DNA from: Streptosporangiaceae bacterium
Lineage (GTDB): Bacteria > Actinomycetota > Actinomycetes > Streptosporangiales > Streptosporangiaceae
Reading direction: 5' to 3'
Assembly (NCBI GenBank): GCA_025934635.1
Contig: JAICWX010000125.1
Coordinates: forward strand, 1-22,919
DNA: 22,919 nucleotides
Part shown: positions 7,763 to 17,177 of the stretch, piece by piece
Layout of the letters: every line of letters starts with the position of its first letter
How positions within the stretch are numbered: the stretch's first letter is position 1
Made by a program: the position numbers and the translations under genes
The notes under the pieces: model-generated
Databases searched by the model: none
Told to the model about the DNA's origin: nothing
The model's input: the letters and a program-made list of their open reading frames with translations, nothing else

Positions 7763-7966
7763 ATGTCGATCACCGCGAGGCGGACTCCGGCAGCGGCCGG
7801 CGAGGCTGGTGGTCGAAGACCACGGCTAACCGGCATCGGTAAGCCCGGGCCGTTCAAGTACCACCTGCTCGGGACATGGTCACGGCGCTTTGACGACGAG
7901 CATCGTCTCGGCTATGTCGTAACGGAGGCAGAGATCATCATCCTCGCGGCCCGCTATCACTACTGA
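7763..7966 (+). pseudogene. Decayed YefM-YoeB toxin-antitoxin remnant (YoeB C-terminal half)
   Basis: The last ~46 residues (LTGIGKPGPFKYHLLGTWSR, then RFDDEHRLGYVV and AARYHY) clearly match the C-terminal half of YoeB/Txe ribosome-dependent mRNA interferases. The N-terminal half of the toxin is missing. The general base of E. coli YoeB, Glu46 in GKPEP, is glycine here (Gly29), while the equivalents of Arg65, His83 and Tyr84 remain (Arg48, His66, Tyr67). The first residues MSITA equal the usual start of YefM antitoxins and are preceded by GGAGG, so the ORF looks like a deletion joining the antitoxin start to the toxin end. No intact antitoxin gene lies upstream. I infer an inactive relic. Confidence 0.75.
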
Positions 7967-8132: not shown

Positions 8133-8138
8133 TATGGT
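8133..8138 (+). promoter_or_regulatory. Candidate -10 box of a leaderless hxsA transcript
   Basis: TATGGT fits the actinobacterial TANNNT -10 element and sits six bases before the GTG start of hxsA at 8145. Transcription would therefore begin at or next to the start codon. No Shine-Dalgarno motif precedes this GTG, as expected for a leaderless mRNA. No convincing -35 element is visible. Confidence 0.4.
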
Positions 8139-8144
8139 CCTGTT

Positions 8145-8690
8145 GTGCCGAAGTCGCCGATTCTCCCGCTAGCTGCCGCGATAACTGCCGTGGCGGTCGC
8201 CGCATCGCCCGCGCAGGCCGCATCGCTTTTAGCCGGAAGGCGCGATGACGTTAAGGTCGTGGCGTTTCCGCTTCTCGCGGTGAAGAGCCAGGTGCCGGCA
8301 GGCTTTGAGGGTCACGTCAGCCATTCATCCCACTCGTCCCATGTTTCGGGTACAGGCAGTCATGTCTCGCATGTTTCTCATGCCTCGCACGTCTCGTCGG
8401 TTCCTGCCCCGGCGCCGGCGAGCGTGGCGCCCGCCACCTCCCAGCCGCCGCCGAGCCCGGCTCCGGTGGCCAGTACGGCCTCGAGCAGCCCGCCTGCTGC
8501 AGCGTCCGCCTCGGGCGAACCGTCTGCGGTCGCACCGCCATCGGGCGACCTTTCGGGCAGTGCAGCGGACTTGGGGAGCGGCAGCCCGGCCGCGAGCAAT
8601 AACGGGGGCTGCGCGTTCGTCATCGTCGCTCCGTTCAGCGCCCTGGCGGGATGGATCAGGCGGGTCATTCTCCGCGGGAGGGCGAGATGA
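8145..8690 (+). CDS. hxsA: HxsA-like His-Xaa-Ser repeat protein, exported; presumed substrate of the Hxs maturases
   Basis: This 181-residue protein has four parts. Residues 1-25 form a signal-peptide-like segment (MPKSPILPLAAAITAVAVAA, then SPAQA, a plausible signal peptidase I site). Residues 57-84 carry eight His-Xaa-Ser triplets in two blocks of four (H-V-S, H-S-S, H-S-S, H-V-S; spacer GTGS; H-V-S, H-V-S, H-A-S, H-V-S). Residues ~86-150 are a low-complexity Pro/Ala/Ser linker. The C-terminus has a single Cys156 followed by a short hydrophobic segment and Arg-rich end (GGCAFVIVAPFSALAGWIRR). The His-Xaa-Ser repeat next to HxsD, HxsB and HxsC identifies the system. HxsA is the presumed target of the two radical SAM enzymes; the modification is unknown. 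The gene overlaps hxsD by ATGA. The C-terminal hydrophobic/basic tail could hold it at the membrane. Confidence 0.82.
   Translation: MPKSPILPLAAAITAVAVAASPAQAASLLAGRRDDVKVVAFPLLAVKSQVPAGFEGHVSHSSHSSHVSGTGSHVSHVSHASHVSSVPAPAPASVAPATSQPPPSPAPVASTASSSPPAAASASGEPSAVAPPSGDLSGSAADLGSGSPAASNNGGCAFVIVAPFSALAGWIRRVILRGRAR
8313..8396 (+). repeat. Tandem His-Xaa-Ser codon repeats inside hxsA
   Basis: Eight nine-base units of pattern CAY-NNN-TCN (mostly CAT/CAC GTC/GTT TCG/TCC/TCT/TCA) are arranged 4 + 4 around a 12-base GTGS spacer. The synonymous codons differ between units, so the protein repeat is kept by selection rather than by very recent duplication. Confidence 0.8.
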
Positions 8691-9046
8691 GCCAGGTCGC
8701 TGACACAGCGGGCGCCGGTGCCGAGGCAGCCGGCGCGGCGGAGATCACGGTGGTTTTCGATCAAGCGACCGTGGGACTGGACGCATTGCAACGCAGCGCC
8801 TATACGCTCGCCGCCGAGCTGACGGCTGACATCCGCGTCCGCGGCTCGGACTACGTGTGCACGTTGTTTCCGCGCACGCCCGGCGTTGCCAGCGACGAAC
8901 TGAAGCACCGGTTTCGCGCGGAGGTGAACGACCAGGTCTTGCGGGCGCGGATCGCGAAAGCTACTGAGCCGCTGCGGAATCTGGTCTTCGCGCTGGCGTT
9001 CTCGCAGACCGGCCTGGCCGAGGCTGAAGCCGGGGACCCGGCGTGA
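8687..9046 (+). CDS. hxsD: Hxs system protein HxsD
   Basis: This 119-residue protein corresponds to HxsD, the small non-radical-SAM partner of the His-Xaa-Ser system. The diagnostic region near the C-terminal half reads EVNDQVLRARIAKATEPLRN (from residue 79) followed by LVFALAFS. It is the counterpart of the 'LLNDYxLRE...T...R..I...A' signature of the family. The N-terminal ~18 residues are Ala/Gly-rich, then a compact alpha/beta part begins (EITVVFDQATVGLDALQRSAYTL). The ATG at 8687 overlaps the hxsA stop (ATGA) and has GGGAGGG upstream, so it is preferred to the in-frame ATG at 8651. Its role is unknown; it may be a peptide-binding or scaffold subunit. It is translationally coupled to hxsB through a GTGA overlap. 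Confidence 0.82.
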   Translation: MSQVADTAGAGAEAAGAAEITVVFDQATVGLDALQRSAYTLAAELTADIRVRGSDYVCTLFPRTPGVASDELKHRFRAEVNDQVLRARIAKATEPLRNLVFALAFSQTGLAEAEAGDPA

Positions 9047-10494
9047 TCAAACTGGAGCGGGCAACGACGGAACTCCCTCGGCAGGGCTGGCAGTTGCTGC
9101 CGTTGCGGTTTCACCGGATGGACGCGGATTCGGTGGTCCTCACCAACCTGGTGGGTGAGCACGTGTTCGTGACGCCGGACGAGCTGAGCGCCGTGGTAGA
9201 CGGTACTTGCGCGGATCAGGAGCTGCTCGCGCGGCTGCGGGCGGCGCACCTGATCCAGGTGCCCGGCGAGACGCTTCCTGCTGAGCTGCTGGCTATCAAG
9301 CTGCGGACCCGGATGCGGCGCCTGCCGGACTCGACAGGACTGCACATCTTCGTGGTCACGCTGCGCTGTGAGCACACCTGCCGGTACTGCCAGGTGTCCC
9401 GGCAGGCGGCGGCGAAGAGCGAGTTCGACATGACCGAGCAAACCGCCCGCCGGGCGCTCGAGCTGGCCTTCCGGTCGCCGTCGCCGCACCTGAAGATCGA
9501 ATTCCAGGGTGGTGAGCCGCTACTGAACTTCCCGCTCGTCCGCTGGATCACCGCTGAGGCCAGACGGATGAACTCCGAGCACGGCAAGGACCTGGCGTTC
9601 GTGATCGCGACGAACCTGGCGCTGCTTGACGAGGAGATCCTCGGGTTCTGCGCCGAGGAACAGATCGACATTTCGACCTCCCTTGACGGCCCGCAGGACC
9701 TGCACAACGGCAACCGCCGCCGCCCCGGCCGCGACAGCTGGCAGCAGGCGGTGCAGGGCATCAGGCAGGTGCAGGAACGTCTCGGCCCAGACCGGGTCAG
9801 TGCGCTGATGACGACTACGGAGGCGAGCCTTGACCGGGCCGCCGAGATCATCGACACCTACGCCGGACTCGGGTTGCGCGGGGTATTCCTGCGCCCGGTA
9901 TCGCCGTATGGCTTCGCGTTGCGAAGCCGCGGCGGCGCGAATTACGACGTGGGCCGGTGGCTTGAGTTCTACGCGGCCGGGCTGGACCGGATCGTCGAGC
10001 TGAACCGGCAGGGCGTCCCGATGGCGGAGATGTACGCATCGATTATCGCGAAGAAGATGCTCACCAACGCCGACCCCGGCTATGTCGACCTGACCTCCCC
10101 GGCGGGCATCGGAATCGGTGCGCTGGTCTATAACTACGATGGCGACATCTACGCGAGCGACGAGGGCCGGATGCTCGCCGAAATGGGTGACCACACCTTC
10201 CGGCTCGGCAACGTGCACGACTGTTCCTATGCGGACATCATGCTCTCCGACGCCCTGCTGAACCCGCTCTCCGAATCAATAACTCTTAGCGCGCCGATGT
10301 GTTCCACATGCGCGTTCGAGCCGTACTGCGGTGCCGATCCAGTGTTCCACCACGCGACTATGGGAGATTTCACCGGGCATAAGGCGCTGTCGGCGTTCTG
10401 CCGGCGCAACATGGGCGTCTTCACCCTGCTTCTGCGGAAGATGCGCGACGACTCCTATTTCCGCGACCTGATGTGGCGGTGGGCGCAATGCTGA
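9043..10494 (+). CDS. hxsB: His-Xaa-Ser system radical SAM maturase HxsB
   Basis: This 483-residue protein has an N-terminal ~95-residue region typical of HxsB (LPLRFHRMDADSVVLTNLVG...). It may act as a precursor-recognition part. The radical SAM core follows, with CEHTCRYC giving Cys109, Cys113 and Cys116 for the [4Fe-4S]-SAM cluster. FQGGEPLLNF is the GGEP SAM-binding motif, and next come IATNLALLDEEIL and DISTSLDGPQDLHNGNR. A C-terminal SPASM-like cysteine set includes Cys420, Cys423, Cys429 (CSTCAFEPYCG) and Cys453. SPASM radical SAM enzymes modify ribosomal peptides by cross-linking or epimerisation; the chemistry here is not known. The GTG start overlaps the hxsD stop (GTGA). It is coupled to hxsC by a 7-base overlap. 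Confidence 0.88.
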   Translation: MIKLERATTELPRQGWQLLPLRFHRMDADSVVLTNLVGEHVFVTPDELSAVVDGTCADQELLARLRAAHLIQVPGETLPAELLAIKLRTRMRRLPDSTGLHIFVVTLRCEHTCRYCQVSRQAAAKSEFDMTEQTARRALELAFRSPSPHLKIEFQGGEPLLNFPLVRWITAEARRMNSEHGKDLAFVIATNLALLDEEILGFCAEEQIDISTSLDGPQDLHNGNRRRPGRDSWQQAVQGIRQVQERLGPDRVSALMTTTEASLDRAAEIIDTYAGLGLRGVFLRPVSPYGFALRSRGGANYDVGRWLEFYAAGLDRIVELNRQGVPMAEMYASIIAKKMLTNADPGYVDLTSPAGIGIGALVYNYDGDIYASDEGRMLAEMGDHTFRLGNVHDCSYADIMLSDALLNPLSESITLSAPMCSTCAFEPYCGADPVFHHATMGDFTGHKALSAFCRRNMGVFTLLLRKMRDDSYFRDLMWRWAQC

Positions 10495-11666
10495 AACTGA
10501 TCGGCCGCGCCGACGCGAGCGGGCTGACCGGGCCGATCGTCGGCGATGTATGGCGGGTCTGCCTGCCTGATGATCCAGGCTGCGGTCCCGCTGGAGCTGT
10601 CGCGTGCCTGCTGCGGGACGGTCAGGCAGCACCTCCCGGCTACGGTCTGTACCTCGCCTCCGGAAAAGAACCGGGGATGGCCAGGCCGCGTGACCATGAG
10701 GTATCCGCCGTGCCCGGTCCGGTGCTCAGTCTCGGGCCCGAGTTGGCGCACTTGGACGCGGGTGACATCATCCACGTTCCCGGCGACGGCCGGCGGGTCA
10801 CCGTCTTGTGGAAGAACTCCGCCCGGCACAACGCCCTGCTGCTCACCGAGCAATGCGACAACTACTGCCTCATGTGCTCTCAGCCCCCAAAAGACCGCGA
10901 CGACGCGTGGCTGTTCGACCGGGCAAGAAAGGTGATCAGCCTGCTTCCGGACGACGCGCGGGCACTCAGCTTCACCGGCGGCGAGCCGACGCTGAACGCG
11001 GACGCCTTCATCGGCCTCCTCGAGCACTGCCAGCGGGTTGCGCCCCGGCTCTCGTTGCACCTGCTGACCAACGGCCGCCGCTTCGCCGACTCCGCGTTCA
11101 CTGACCGTTATGCATCCGTCGGCCTGACTGACATCATGGCCGGCATCCCGCTCTACGCGCCCGAGCCAGGCCTGCATGATTTCATCGTCCAGGCCGCCGG
11201 CGCGTTCGAGGAAACGGTGCACGGCATCCTCAGCCTGGCCTCGCTCGGCCAGGCGGTGGAGATCCGGGTCGTCGTCCAGCGACACACCGTCCCGGTGCTC
11301 ACGGGCCTGGCGGCATTCATCGCGCGAAATCTGCCGTTCGTCGCTCAGGTGGCGCTGATGGGGCTGGAGATGACTGGCCTGGCCCGGCCGAACTCGTCGC
11401 AGGTGTGGGCCGACCCCGCCGATTATCAGAGCGAGCTTGCCGAGGCGGTCGGCACGCTCACCACTGCCGGGATCGCGACGCGGATCTACAACCACCAGCT
11501 ATGCGTCCTTGACCGGCGCCTGTGGCCGTACGCGGTCCGCTCTATCAGCGACTGGAAGAATGACTACCTGGACATCTGCCGGTCCTGTACGGTCCGCGAC
11601 GTATGCGGCGGCGTCTTCACCACGAGCGGCAACCGCCTCAGCCAGCACCTGCACCCGGTAACCTGA
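10488..11666 (+). CDS. hxsC: His-Xaa-Ser system radical SAM maturase HxsC
   Basis: This 392-residue second radical SAM protein has TEQCDNYCLMCSQPPKDRDD, a hallmark of HxsC, with Cys123, Cys127 and Cys130 binding the SAM-cluster iron. LSFTGGEPTLNADAFIGLL follows, then LHLLTNGRRF and a C-terminal cysteine group CRSCTVRDVCGGVF (Cys364, Cys367, Cys373). The first ~115 residues are a separate N-terminal domain lacking the Fe-S motif. HxsC always accompanies HxsB in the described family, so two sequential or cooperative modifications of HxsA are likely. The ATG at 10488 is preferred over the GTG at 10473; either overlaps the end of hxsB. It is the last gene of the cassette, and the next gene, vapC, is convergent. 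Confidence 0.88.
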   Translation: MLKLIGRADASGLTGPIVGDVWRVCLPDDPGCGPAGAVACLLRDGQAAPPGYGLYLASGKEPGMARPRDHEVSAVPGPVLSLGPELAHLDAGDIIHVPGDGRRVTVLWKNSARHNALLLTEQCDNYCLMCSQPPKDRDDAWLFDRARKVISLLPDDARALSFTGGEPTLNADAFIGLLEHCQRVAPRLSLHLLTNGRRFADSAFTDRYASVGLTDIMAGIPLYAPEPGLHDFIVQAAGAFEETVHGILSLASLGQAVEIRVVVQRHTVPVLTGLAAFIARNLPFVAQVALMGLEMTGLARPNSSQVWADPADYQSELAEAVGTLTTAGIATRIYNHQLCVLDRRLWPYAVRSISDWKNDYLDICRSCTVRDVCGGVFTTSGNRLSQHLHPVT

Positions 11667-11698: not shown

Positions 11699-12142
11699 TT
11701 ACCCGCGGTCATTATCTGGCGGCTGGAACGGATTCGCCACGCGAACCCCGGTGTATTCCTGGCCGGCGTTGAGATCCTCTGAATAGAGCACGGTGCAGCC
11801 GATCTCGGCGGCACTACGGACGATCATCGCGTCCCGGAACGAGATCCGGGTGTCCTGGTGGATGCTGATCGCGGCCAGGACGTCGTCAGCCGCCGGAGTG
11901 TGTACATACCAGCGTGCGAGGTCAGCGATGATCTCCTTCGCCATTGCCGGGCTGAGCGGCTTGGCGATCTTCCGGGTCACGGTGACAAAGAACTCTTGCA
12001 GCACTTGGACGCTCAGACAGCCGTCTCGAGACTCCCAGAGTTGTTCGACCAGCGCCCTAGCCTGATCCCGCTTGTCGGCCGCGGAATCGTCGTGCGCGTA
12101 CACCAAGATATTGGTATCGACGAACGCGCGGTTACCGCTCAT
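11699..12142 (-). CDS. vapC: PIN-domain ribonuclease toxin, VapC family
   Basis: This 147-residue PIN-domain protein has the four acidic catalytic residues in place: Asp9 (FVDTNILVYAHD), Glu50 (SVQVLQEFF), Asp104 (ISFRDAMIV) and Asp123 (LYSEDLN). VapC toxins are Mg2+-dependent RNases that cut tRNA or rRNA and are held inactive by their VapB partner. The ATG at 12142 is chosen because it fits the PIN N-terminus and overlaps the end of vapB by 11 bases. An upstream extension to 12229 would only duplicate vapB coding DNA. Length and motifs are normal, so the toxin is probably active. Confidence 0.88.
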   Translation of the reverse strand: MSGNRAFVDTNILVYAHDDSAADKRDQARALVEQLWESRDGCLSVQVLQEFFVTVTRKIAKPLSPAMAKEIIADLARWYVHTPAADDVLAAISIHQDTRISFRDAMIVRSAAEIGCTVLYSEDLNAGQEYTGVRVANPFQPPDNDRG

Positions 12143-12374
12143 GGAGGCTGTCCCGGCTCCAAGCAGCCTGCCCGCTGGTGCCGAGATCCATCCCCTCCCG
12201 CAGCCGGGCAAGGCTCCGGTCCCGGGCACGGGCGTATCCGGTTTCCTGCTCGACGAGATCCTTCAGCATCCGGGCAAGCAACTGCGACACCGACGTGCCG
12301 CGGCTTGCGGCCAGGATCCTGGCCGCCCGGATGTCGTCCTCAGGGAGCGACAGCGTGATGTTCTGGTTAGTCAC
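12132..12374 (-). CDS. vapB: VapB-type ribbon-helix-helix antitoxin
   Basis: This 80-residue protein has the N-terminal ribbon-helix-helix fold: a beta strand (NQNITLSLPEDDIRAARILA) followed by helices ASRGTSVSQLLARMLKDLVE. Its C-terminal tail (residues ~46-80, with AWSRDSL) would wrap the PIN toxin. It starts with GTG, preceded by GAGGTGG. It overlaps vapC by 11 bases, the standard antitoxin-first order. The promoter at 12403-12443 carries an inverted repeat over the -10 box, as expected for autorepression by VapBC. Confidence 0.87.
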   Translation of the reverse strand: MTNQNITLSLPEDDIRAARILAASRGTSVSQLLARMLKDLVEQETGYARARDRSLARLREGMDLGTSGQAAWSRDSLHER

Positions 12375-14996: not shown

Positions 14997-17054
14997 CTAG
15001 CCGTGCGGCGCCGGCGCATAGCCGGCTGGCCGGGCGGTGAAGGTGCCACGGCCCTGCGTCCGGCTGCGCAGCCGGCTCGCGTAGCCGAACAGCTCGGCCA
15101 GCGGCACGGTCGCGGTGACCACGGCGGTCCCGGCCCGCACCGCGGAGTCCGTGACGTGGCCGCGCCGGGCCGCGAGGTCGCCCAGCACCACGCCCACGGC
15201 GTCGTCCGGCACCGTCACGATGACGTCGGCCACCGGCTCCAGGAGCTGCATCACGCTCGCGCGCAGTGCTTCCCGCAGCCCGAGCCGGCCCGCCAGCCGG
15301 AACGCCAGCTCGGACGAGTCCTTCGGGTGGGTGGCCCCGTCGGTCAGGGTGACCCGCAGCCCGGTCACCGGATGGCCGCCGAGCGGCCCCTCGGCCAGGG
15401 CGTCCCGGCATCCGGCCTCCACCGCCCGGATGTACTCGCGCGGCAGGTGGCCGCCGGCCACCGCCGACCGGAACCCGAAGCCTTCCCCGTCCTCCGCGTC
15501 AGCGGGCTCGACGTCGAGGACGACATGGGCGAACTGGCCCGGCCCGCCGTCCTGCTTGACGTGCCGGTACACCAGTCCGGACACCCCGCGGACGACGGTC
15601 TCCCGGTAGGTCACCTCCGGCCGCCCGACGATGAGTTCCAGGCCGCACGCCCGGCGGATCTTCTCCACTGCCACCTCCAGGTGCAGCTCGCCCAGCCCGG
15701 AAAGCACCGTCTGGCCGGTCTCGGGGTCGTTCCGTACGACCAGCGACGGATCCTCCTCGACCAGGTGCGCCAGCTCCGACGCCAGCCGTCCGGTGCCGGC
15801 GGCCCGGCGGGCCTCCACCGCCACCGAGACCACCGGATCCGCCACCGTCGGCGGCTCGAGGACCAGCGGGTCCCCGGGGTCGCAGAGGGTAGTGCCGACC
15901 CGGGCTGCCTTCGGCCCGGCGACCGCGACGATGTCACCGGCGATCGCACGGTCCACCTCGGTGTGGCGGTCGGCCTGAACCCGCAGGAGCCGGGCGATCC
16001 GCTCGGTACGGCGGGCACCGGCATCCCATACGGCCGCTCCCTTCCGCGCCGTCCCGGAGTACACCCGCAGGTAGGTCAGCCGGCCGGTGGCGGTCGTGAC
16101 CACCTTGAACACCAGCGCGGCGAACGACGCCGCCGGGTCAGCGGCCCGTTCCTGCCCCACCCAGGCCGCAGTGCCGCGCACCGGCGGCACATCCAGGGGC
16201 GACGGCAGGTAGGCCACGACGGCGTCCAGCAGCGGCTCGATGCCGCGGTTGCGGTAAGCCGAGCCGCACAGCACCACGAGGCCCTCGCCGCTGAGGGTGA
16301 GGTCGCGCAGCGCGCAGGACAGCGTCTGGGCGGACACGGTCCCCTGCGCGCAGAACTCCTCCAGCGCCGCCGGATGAAGCCCGGCCACCGCTTCCTCCAG
16401 CAGCCGTCGGCGCCGTCGCGCCTCGTTGCCCAGCCCGTCAGGCACCGGTCCTTCGTCGGCCGTCTCGCACCCGTCGGTCCAGGTCAGCGCCCGCAGGCGC
16501 AGCAGGTCGACTACGCCGGTGAATCCGTCCTCTCGCCCGATCGGCAGCTGCACCACGAGCGGCGCCGGATGCAGCCGCCGCCGGATCGAGCCGACCGCCG
16601 CATCGAGTTCGGCGCCTGCCCGGTCCAGCTTGTTGACGAACGCGATGCGCGGCACCCGGTGCCGGTCGGCCTGCCGCCATACCGCTTCGCTCTGCGGCTC
16701 GACGCCCGCCACGGCGTCGAACACCGCGATCGCGCCGTCGAGGACCCGCAGCGAGCGCTCAACCTCGCCGGAGAAGTCGACGTGCCCGGGCGTGTCGATG
16801 AGGTTGATCCGGTAGCCGTCCCAGCCGCAGCTCACGGCCGCGGCGAAGATGGTGATCCCGCGATCGCGCTCCTGGGAGTCGAAGTCGGTGACGGTCGTGC
16901 CGTCATGGACTTCGCCGCGCTTGTAGGTGGTCCCGGTGACATACAGGATCCGTTCGGTGATGGTGGTCTTGCCGGCGTCGACATGGGCGAGGATGCCCAG
17001 GTTGCGGACGCCGTTCAGCGGGTTGACGGGAATACGGTTCAGGCCGGTACGCAC
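14997..17054 (-). CDS. EF-G-like translational GTPase (paralogue, ribosomal-protection-type)
   Basis: This 685-residue five-domain translation GTPase has G1 AHVDAGKTT (23-31), G2 RGITI (65-69), G3 DTPGHVDF (87-94), G4 NKLD (141-144) and a G5-like GSAYRN. These are followed by domain II, then GLGELHLEVAVEKIRR and an EF-G domain IV/V (HVKQDGGPGQFAHVVLDVEP, LREALRASVMQLLEPVADVIVTVP). The segment before G2 reads VTDFDSQERDRGITI instead of the MDWMEQEQERGITI of housekeeping EF-G, so this is a paralogue (EF-G2 or ribosomal-protection-like) and not the str-operon fusA. Such paralogues relieve stalled or drug-bound ribosomes or act in recycling. The start is GTG at 17054, with AAAGG ten bases upstream; longer in-frame extensions would run through the leader hairpin. 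The leader holds a 38-codon ORF and a terminator-like hairpin, implying attenuation control. Confidence 0.85.
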   Translation of the reverse strand: MRTGLNRIPVNPLNGVRNLGILAHVDAGKTTITERILYVTGTTYKRGEVHDGTTVTDFDSQERDRGITIFAAAVSCGWDGYRINLIDTPGHVDFSGEVERSLRVLDGAIAVFDAVAGVEPQSEAVWRQADRHRVPRIAFVNKLDRAGAELDAAVGSIRRRLHPAPLVVQLPIGREDGFTGVVDLLRLRALTWTDGCETADEGPVPDGLGNEARRRRRLLEEAVAGLHPAALEEFCAQGTVSAQTLSCALRDLTLSGEGLVVLCGSAYRNRGIEPLLDAVVAYLPSPLDVPPVRGTAAWVGQERAADPAASFAALVFKVVTTATGRLTYLRVYSGTARKGAAVWDAGARRTERIARLLRVQADRHTEVDRAIAGDIVAVAGPKAARVGTTLCDPGDPLVLEPPTVADPVVSVAVEARRAAGTGRLASELAHLVEEDPSLVVRNDPETGQTVLSGLGELHLEVAVEKIRRACGLELIVGRPEVTYRETVVRGVSGLVYRHVKQDGGPGQFAHVVLDVEPADAEDGEGFGFRSAVAGGHLPREYIRAVEAGCRDALAEGPLGGHPVTGLRVTLTDGATHPKDSSELAFRLAGRLGLREALRASVMQLLEPVADVIVTVPDDAVGVVLGDLAARRGHVTDSAVRAGTAVVTATVPLAELFGYASRLRSRTQGRGTFTARPAGYAPAPHG

Positions 17055-17131
17055 GGCACGGGACCTTTCGAAGTGATCTGTGCCAGGACAGCGCCATTCC
17101 CGCGGCGAGCCGACGTCCGGATGCCCGTGCG

Positions 17132-17155
17132 AAAACCCGGCCTGCCCAGGCCGGG
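17132..17155 (-). terminator. Intrinsic-terminator-like attenuator hairpin in the EF-G-like leader
   Basis: Read on the reverse strand, CCCGGCCTG and CAGGCCGGG pair (17155-17147 with 17144-17136; realistically 7-8 bp with a 4-6 base loop) and are followed at once by TTTT (17135-17132). It lies between the leader ORF stop (17178) and the EF-G-like start (17054). A longer-range pair, CCCGTGC/GCACGGG (17171-17177 with 17124-17130), encloses the hairpin. The left partner directly follows the leader stop codon, where a stalled or terminating ribosome would cover it. Confidence 0.6.
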
Positions 17156-17177
17156 CGGGCCAGGCGGCGAGCACGGG

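Follow-up and report, generated by a model that had tools for sequence, protein, structure and literature searches.

A four-gene cassette in the 22,919-nucleotide stretch of Streptosporangiaceae DNA analysed here (contig JAICWX010000125.1, assembly GCA_025934635.1; the window) is, by its profile matches and layout, a His-Xaa-Ser (Hxs) system of known kind whose substrate, HxsA, and small partner, HxsD, fall short of the curated models. To judge from its sequences, the substrate family is an unnamed one with a probably surface-anchored variant outside the current family models. With moderate confidence, the cassette is read as an Hxs system adapted to the actinomycete envelope, in which a modified HxS tip would sit on a membrane-held HxsA. 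The Hxs system has been catalogued from genomes; HxS motifs putatively depend on HxsB and HxsC for maturation, a statement that cites Haft and Basu (PMC9062424), and hxs genes are listed on a genomic element (PMC8446631). A literature search on Hxs and His-Xaa-Ser, with most subscription journals outside its scope, found no paper establishing the chemistry or the role, in keeping with a first-pass annotation of this DNA that had called both not established. That annotation had also described four overlapping plus-strand genes, and all four open reading frames were found in place:

8145..8690 (+): hxsA, HxS-repeat substrate of 181 residues, GTG start (open reading frame, profile searches, alignment)
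8687..9046 (+): hxsD, 119 residues, predicted beta-alpha-beta-beta-alpha (profile search, AlphaFold2 model)
8651 (+): alternative upstream ATG start of hxsD
9043..10494 (+): hxsB, radical S-adenosylmethionine (SAM) maturase of 483 residues (profile search, alignment)
10488..11666 (+): hxsC, radical SAM maturase of 392 residues (profile search, alignment)

The expected tight couplings are present as ATGA between hxsA and hxsD (8687-8690) and GTGA between hxsD and hxsB (9043-9046), while hxsB and hxsC share the 7-nucleotide overlap ATGCTGA (10488-10494). In the profile check that the first-pass annotation had proposed, both radical SAM proteins passed the curated NCBIfam cut-offs, HxsB with 584.9 bits against TIGR03978 (cut-off 370) and HxsC with 373.3 bits against TIGR03977 (cut-off 267.9); PF04055 (Radical_SAM) gave 50.5 and 35.3 bits (cut-off 29.5). 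HxsD, scanned from the longer 8651 start, reached 40.4 bits (E 2.8e-10) against TIGR03976, below the cut-off of 50, so that its kinship to the Hxs model is clear at the profile level though curated equivalence is not attained. HxsA fell below every HxsA cut-off in NCBIfam (HxsA3, 30.1 of 65 bits; HxsA4, 26.4 of 55; HxsA, 24.6 of 121.65) and gave no match to the HxsA2 model at E 0.1. The claim of a complete Hxs cassette thus stands for the two enzymes, but since HxsD and HxsA score below cut-off, completeness is argued in part from gene order and from co-conservation.

The HxsA substrate and its conserved end

A search for HxsA relatives found 87, named hypothetical protein or unnamed in their sources, with one labelled TonB. 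With the window HxsA they make 88 sequences, the basis for the counts of motif, tail pattern and x position; dropping 11 truncated or frame-broken relatives (P0185, P0190, P0192-P0198, P0200, P0204) leaves a set of 77 aligned rows. None of the 77 matched any NCBIfam model at E 1e-12, a limit that an HxsA2 score barely over its 48-bit cut-off could slightly miss. The general design of the 77 rows is a signal peptide, usually a leader motif, an unbroken HxS core, a linker and a C-terminal end, which in the window fall as follows:

8145..8219 (+): predicted Sec signal peptide, residues 1-25, AQA cleavage site (judged by eye)
8256..8285 (+): leader motif VVAFPLLAVK, residues 38-47, candidate maturase recognition element (motif counts, alignment columns)
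8313..8396 (+): HxS core, residues 57-84, HVSHSSHSSHVS-GTGS-HVSHVSHASHVS (alignment, codon and shuffle analysis)
8607..8687 (+): C-terminal Gly-Cys/hydrophobic/basic tail, residues 155-181, putative membrane anchor or sorting signal (alignment, hydropathy)

The core was confirmed at residues 57-84, where it had been placed before, with eight HxS motifs, a number reached in none of 100,000 shuffles of the HxsA residues (maximum 7). Six different codons are used for its serines, so that it is not a DNA microsatellite, and it contains no Cys. The 77-row alignment has nearly invariant N-terminal residues and 14 invariant columns, 12 of which are His or Ser of the repeats. Its cores hold 649 His residues, followed at +2 by Ser in 638 cases and by His in the other 11, the latter being the residues beside an x-position His. 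Because the core limits were themselves defined by HxS matches, the lack of a broken repeat holds inside the core and does not cover the region beyond. At the x position Val (335) and Ser (181) are commonest, with Ala, Tyr, Asp, Thr, Asn, Gln, His, Glu and others also found, and the HxS blocks are separated by short, mostly Gly-rich inserts. A VVAFPLLAVK-like motif precedes the core in 81 of the 88 sequences, exactly nine residues from the first His in 77 of these 81. Judged by eye, a hydrophobic-basic stretch also lies 9-12 residues before the core in nine of 13 distant HxsA proteins (FVLKR, LILRK and LVLKL against FPLLAVK), the poor fits being L015, L018, L022 and L023.

In most of the 88 sequences 83-105 residues follow the core and finish in a conserved end, which in 69 takes the strict form Gly-Cys-x-hydrophobic-Ala-Pro. 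In 64 of the 77 rows the Cys with its hydrophobic pattern stands 26 residues short of the C-terminus, and in five at 25, 27 or 34; the eight rows without it are P0133, P0206 and six distant rows with a plain transmembrane-like hydrophobic anchor and a basic tail. Hydropathy of the tails has a median of 1.79 in the best 17-residue stretch, and the last 15 residues carry a median net charge of +6. P0206 is peculiar in that its HxS core is followed by a longer domain with no hydrophobic-basic end. The window HxsA gave no match to CTERM models at E 0.1, nor did 10 of its relatives match the MYXO-CTERM model at E 1, a search in which short motifs can escape the HMMER filters; the CTERM-type matches of these 10 at E 1 were to other models only, below cut-off and in plain-anchor rows. 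In Aeromonas, Klebsiella and Adhaeribacter, HxsA ends instead in PG_binding_1 (40.1, 25.5 and 64.0 bits; cut-off 23), which may be an alternative route to tethering. With a membrane tail here and PG_binding_1 there, the same core appears with different tethering ends. This substrate design, with its anchor-like or peptidoglycan-binding ends, makes a protein tethered to the envelope and modified at its tip the likelier reading of HxsA, ahead of a diffusible peptide. The exported product of the first-pass annotation is kept as far as the signal peptide, read by eye, is concerned; the C-terminal anchor had been missed, and with it the likely role shifts to that of a tethered surface protein.

The two radical SAM enzymes and HxsD

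The SAM-cluster cysteines and the additional C-terminal cysteine sets reported earlier were all located by alignment in both enzymes:

9367..9390 (+): HxsB radical SAM cluster cysteines C109, C113, C116 (CxxxCxxC)
10300..10401 (+): HxsB auxiliary-cluster cysteines C420, C423, C429, C453
10854..10877 (+): HxsC radical SAM cluster cysteines C123, C127, C130
11502..11606 (+): HxsC auxiliary-cluster cysteines C339, C364, C367, C373

These residues are invariant in 28 HxsB and 10 HxsC rows, with the sole exception of C113, which is Arg in one of the 28. A full SPASM domain has seven cysteines that bind two auxiliary clusters. Only four C-terminal cysteines are conserved in each enzyme over the same rows, short of a full SPASM set, which suggests one auxiliary cluster each rather than two.

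Outside its own family HxsB scores nearest to PapB (103 bits), nif11 (94.3), QhpD (89.6) and SCIFF (84.6) maturases, followed further down by the anaerobic sulfatase maturase (68.6; cut-off 349) and YhhB (67). Among solved structures CteB (5wgg) is the best match to the HxsB profile, and the sulfatase maturases 4k36 and 4k37 also match. The N-terminal domain of HxsB is covered only by the HxsB and QhpD models among the 25 families listed of 55 matched, the QhpD model (TIGR03906) spanning residues 27-287, and Pfam models of the RiPP recognition element (RRE; RiPP, ribosomally synthesized and post-translationally modified peptide) gave no match at E 10 to five N-terminal pieces. In an HxsB search that scored 8,000 candidates, 7,759 of them at E 0.001, the best 120 of these were used; the closest homologues are 91-92% identical, and those named by organism come from Trebonia sp. 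(2), of the Treboniaceae in the Streptosporangiales, Streptosporangiaceae (1) and Actinomycetota (1). Going by these protein names, the host, a soil-type actinomycete, is probably Trebonia-like.

HxsD aligns with HxsD of nine plasmid loci (described below) at 19-33% identity and occupies the same operon place. An AlphaFold2 model built from 43 sequences had a mean predicted local distance difference test (pLDDT) score of 81.5; by ten-residue blocks the score was 93-96 over most of the folded part, with two blocks at 82 and 81. The model places a strand at 20-25, a helix at 31-40, strands at 45-52 and 55-62 and a helix at 69-108. A PqqD-like RRE fold runs three strands and then three helices. 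Since the modelled order is unlike this, HxsD may be a partner of a different kind from the PqqD-like recognition fold. Structural matches to the model were weak and common. PF27806 is annotated on the 120 HxsD homologues listed and was absent from the Pfam scan here.

Gene order in relatives and neighbouring genes

For comparison, nine of 487 HxsB-matching plasmid records were picked for diversity. The genes A, D, B and C are adjacent in the window and in all nine plasmid loci, and A, D and B stand together in L001-L003. The A-D-B-C order, with the substrate first, is present as had been pointed out but is not special to the window, being common to seven of the nine (Novosphingobium, Paraburkholderia, Methylobacter, Nostoc, Leptospira, Adhaeribacter and Mesorhizobium); the Aeromonas and Klebsiella loci read D-B-C-A. 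As had been noted for the window, family scans of its proteins found neither exporter nor peptidase genes inside the hxs operon; an efflux-type major facilitator superfamily pump gene lies 0.9 kb past hxsC. None was seen within the operons of the nine plasmid loci either, for which the PLSDB gene tables are incomplete. A zincin-like metallopeptidase gene lies on the opposite strand 0.2 kb outside the Mesorhizobium operon, and chromate and EamA transporter genes lie farther from that of Novosphingobium.

A tree of 29 HxsB rows puts the 16 from actinomycetes in one clade (100/100). Together with Novosphingobium, Mesorhizobium, a betaproteobacterial metagenome-assembled genome (MAG) and Paraburkholderia they make a 20-row group (100/99), with Nostoc next (89/78); the exact sister of actinomycete HxsB is unsure because long branches were flagged in the tree. 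HxsB of a Dehalococcoidia-labelled MAG is nearly identical to that of a Methylovulum MAG whose site name is similar (L001 and L003; branches 0.02 and 0.025), which likely reflects binning contamination or recent transfer. The Leptospira locus (L019), which is plasmid-borne, pairs hxsDBC with an HxS protein, and the phage record vB_LnoZ_CZ214-LE1 (KF114877.1) carries hxsB and hxsC. In Elusimicrobium, three HxsB-family matches over cut-off (L005, L010, L011) fall on one contig with no HxSHxS open reading frame in the examined stretches, and these Hxs-like enzymes may have a different substrate.

Directly upstream of hxsA, at 7763-7966 (+), lies a YoeB-family toxin gene without its N-terminal part (Pfam match positions 32-80 of 80). 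No antitoxin beside it was identified in NCBIfam and Pfam scans, and by its sequence it looks like a remnant. Downstream, a PIN-domain, VapC-like gene (11699-12229, -) is convergent with hxsC and forms a vapBC-like pair with a small gene (12132-12374, -) that has weak ribbon-helix-helix antitoxin matches; a complete EF-G-like translation factor gene follows at 14997-17174 (-). At the GTG start of hxsA (8133-8147), 34 of 46 relatives with the frame open upstream keep Tyr-x-Pro-x-Val or Tyr-Arg-Leu-x-Val; the window has a stop codon just ahead of this region, and the relatives are known there from protein-level data alone. The residue pattern would fit a conserved TATGGT-like box, with hxsA transcribed as a leaderless message.

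Proposed mechanism, alternatives and likeness to known systems

A mechanism is proposed in which HxsA would be made in the cytoplasm, where VVAFPLLAVK, nine residues ahead of the core, would bring the HxS repeats into position on the enzymes HxsB and HxsC, HxsD serving as an accessory, and these two enzymes would modify the His and Ser of each repeat. Radical SAM enzymes act in the cytoplasm, and QhpD acts there on its substrate QhpC, so modification is placed before export. Sec would then export HxsA through its signal peptide, the C-terminal hydrophobic and basic tail would hold it in the membrane, the Gly-Cys being possibly lipidated or cleaved, and the Pro/Ser/Ala-rich linker would carry the modified, His-rich tip outward. 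The likeliest single modification, itself put forward tentatively, is a carbon-carbon cross-link from His(i) to Ser(i+2) in each repeat, as in triceptides; it is favoured because the i/i+2 spacing of cyclophanes fits the His-x-Ser geometry. A metal-binding or redox role at the surface would be a guess. A bolder picture, rather unlikely as a whole, makes the tip a rigid series of eight three-residue rings, each bridged by imidazole (His C2 to Ser C-beta), and has a stalk carry it outside the membrane as a genetically encoded metal-binding or redox ladder; if true, triceptide chemistry would be used on a resident envelope protein and not on a secreted peptide.

Several findings weigh against this scheme. 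The hydrophobic stretch of the tail is short and contains Pro, tail hydropathy is low in two of the 77 rows (P0180, 1.15; P0206, 0.34), and P0133 has a hydrophobic-basic tail but no Cys. Closer HxsB relatives (Paraburkholderia, Nostoc and others) have a short, anchorless HxsA ending at the core or a few residues after it, so tethering is not universal. Elusimicrobium locus L005, where HxsB-family matches over cut-off occur, has no open reading frame with two HxSHxS matches, so HxsB-family enzymes do not always lie beside an HxS substrate. As to the chemistry, HxsB scores nearer the PapB, nif11, QhpD and SCIFF maturases than the cyclophane former YhhB, a thioether-forming kinship that weighs against a confident call, though Cys is absent from the window core. 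The presence of two distinct radical SAM proteins points to two reactions or more.

Radical SAM enzymes next to small precursors usually make RiPPs, and the short HxsA of relatives have their core at the extreme C-terminus, as many RiPP precursors do; a signal or bacteriocin whose modified core is excised and released is nonetheless unlikely here, since the window core precedes a long tail with a conserved end and neither the window operon nor the plasmid ones, as far as their tables go, hold a peptidase or exporter. His-rich repeats can also bind metals unmodified, and the Elusimicrobium locus has the enzymes with no HxS protein detected. That HxsA is such an unmodified surface protein, with HxsB, HxsC and HxsD acting elsewhere, is nevertheless very improbable in view of the hxs genes lying together in the window, the nine plasmid loci and (A, D and B) L001-L003, and of a register unbroken inside 77 cores, more than metal binding should seemingly require.

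A competitor to the cyclophane, though not to tethering, has close to an even chance: formylglycine from Ser, epimerisation, or a backbone or ether link of the streptide or bicyclostreptin type, possibly one per enzyme. The sulfatase maturase matches of HxsB, to the family model and to 4k36/4k37, speak for it, as does bicyclostreptin, which starts from a His-Gly-His precursor and involves an RRE protein and a pair of radical SAM enzymes (PMC11002830). Formylglycine alone, however, leaves the invariant His unexplained, and in bicyclostreptin the ether runs between Ser(i) and His(i+3) (PMC11002830), a spacing that the invariant Ser of HxS does not offer. The Gly-Cys tail could, doubtfully, serve as a sorting signal, undergoing lipidation and then cleavage by an intramembrane protease in the way proposed for MYXO-CTERM; this would be compatible with membrane tethering. 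Its Cys-hydrophobic-basic layout at a fixed place recalls the tripartite MYXO-CTERM with its invariant Cys and CPBP-protease cut (PMC11980579); the CTERM search results and the Cys-less tail of P0133 run counter to it.

That tethering ends of more than one kind occur, the membrane tail of the window HxsA and the peptidoglycan-binding domain of some Gram-negative ones, speaks for a modified protein that acts at the cell surface. With only four genes to handle, 76 relatives of the substrate to reveal its unchanging residues, and a clear prediction of -2 Da per repeat, the actinomycete clade makes the question of chemistry directly testable.

Among known systems, triceptides show the i/i+2 links that are proposed for Hxs, and separate enzymes are known to use His as the aromatic residue or Ser as its counterpart (PMC11002830): three-residue cyclophane enzymes join His C2 to the C-beta of Ala or Arg (HaaB, YhhB), and MscB joins Phe C4 to Ser C-beta (PMC11002830). 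Hxs differs from these systems in combining a small partner with two radical SAM enzymes, and HxsB lies far below the cut-offs of those families. In quinohemoprotein amine dehydrogenase, as proposed for Hxs, a radical SAM enzyme, QhpD, modifies a protein subunit, QhpC, in the cytoplasm, and the enzyme is obtained from the periplasm; unlike HxsA, QhpC uses Cys for its links and loses its leader to the protease QhpE (PMC7876137). The MYXO-CTERM/myxosortase system resembles the HxsA tail in its Cys, hydrophobic stretch and basic end (a Cys-helix-Arg layout; PMC11980579) but belongs to a different phylum, and since the tail matches no MYXO-CTERM model it is said only that it may work like it. Closer at hand, the short-HxsA systems, labelled HxsA2 in Paraburkholderia and Nostoc and unnamed in Mesorhizobium and Novosphingobium, share the A-D-B-C order, an HxsB 49-55% identical and in some cases the hydrophobic-basic stretch before the core, whereas their HxsA, of 61-96 residues as annotated, ends at or near the core with no anchor. 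The canonical HxsA systems of Klebsiella and Aeromonas share the HxS core, linker, tethering end and HxsB, HxsC and HxsD families with the window, and differ in their D-B-C-A order, a PG_binding_1 end in place of the membrane tail and an HxsB 33-39% identical.

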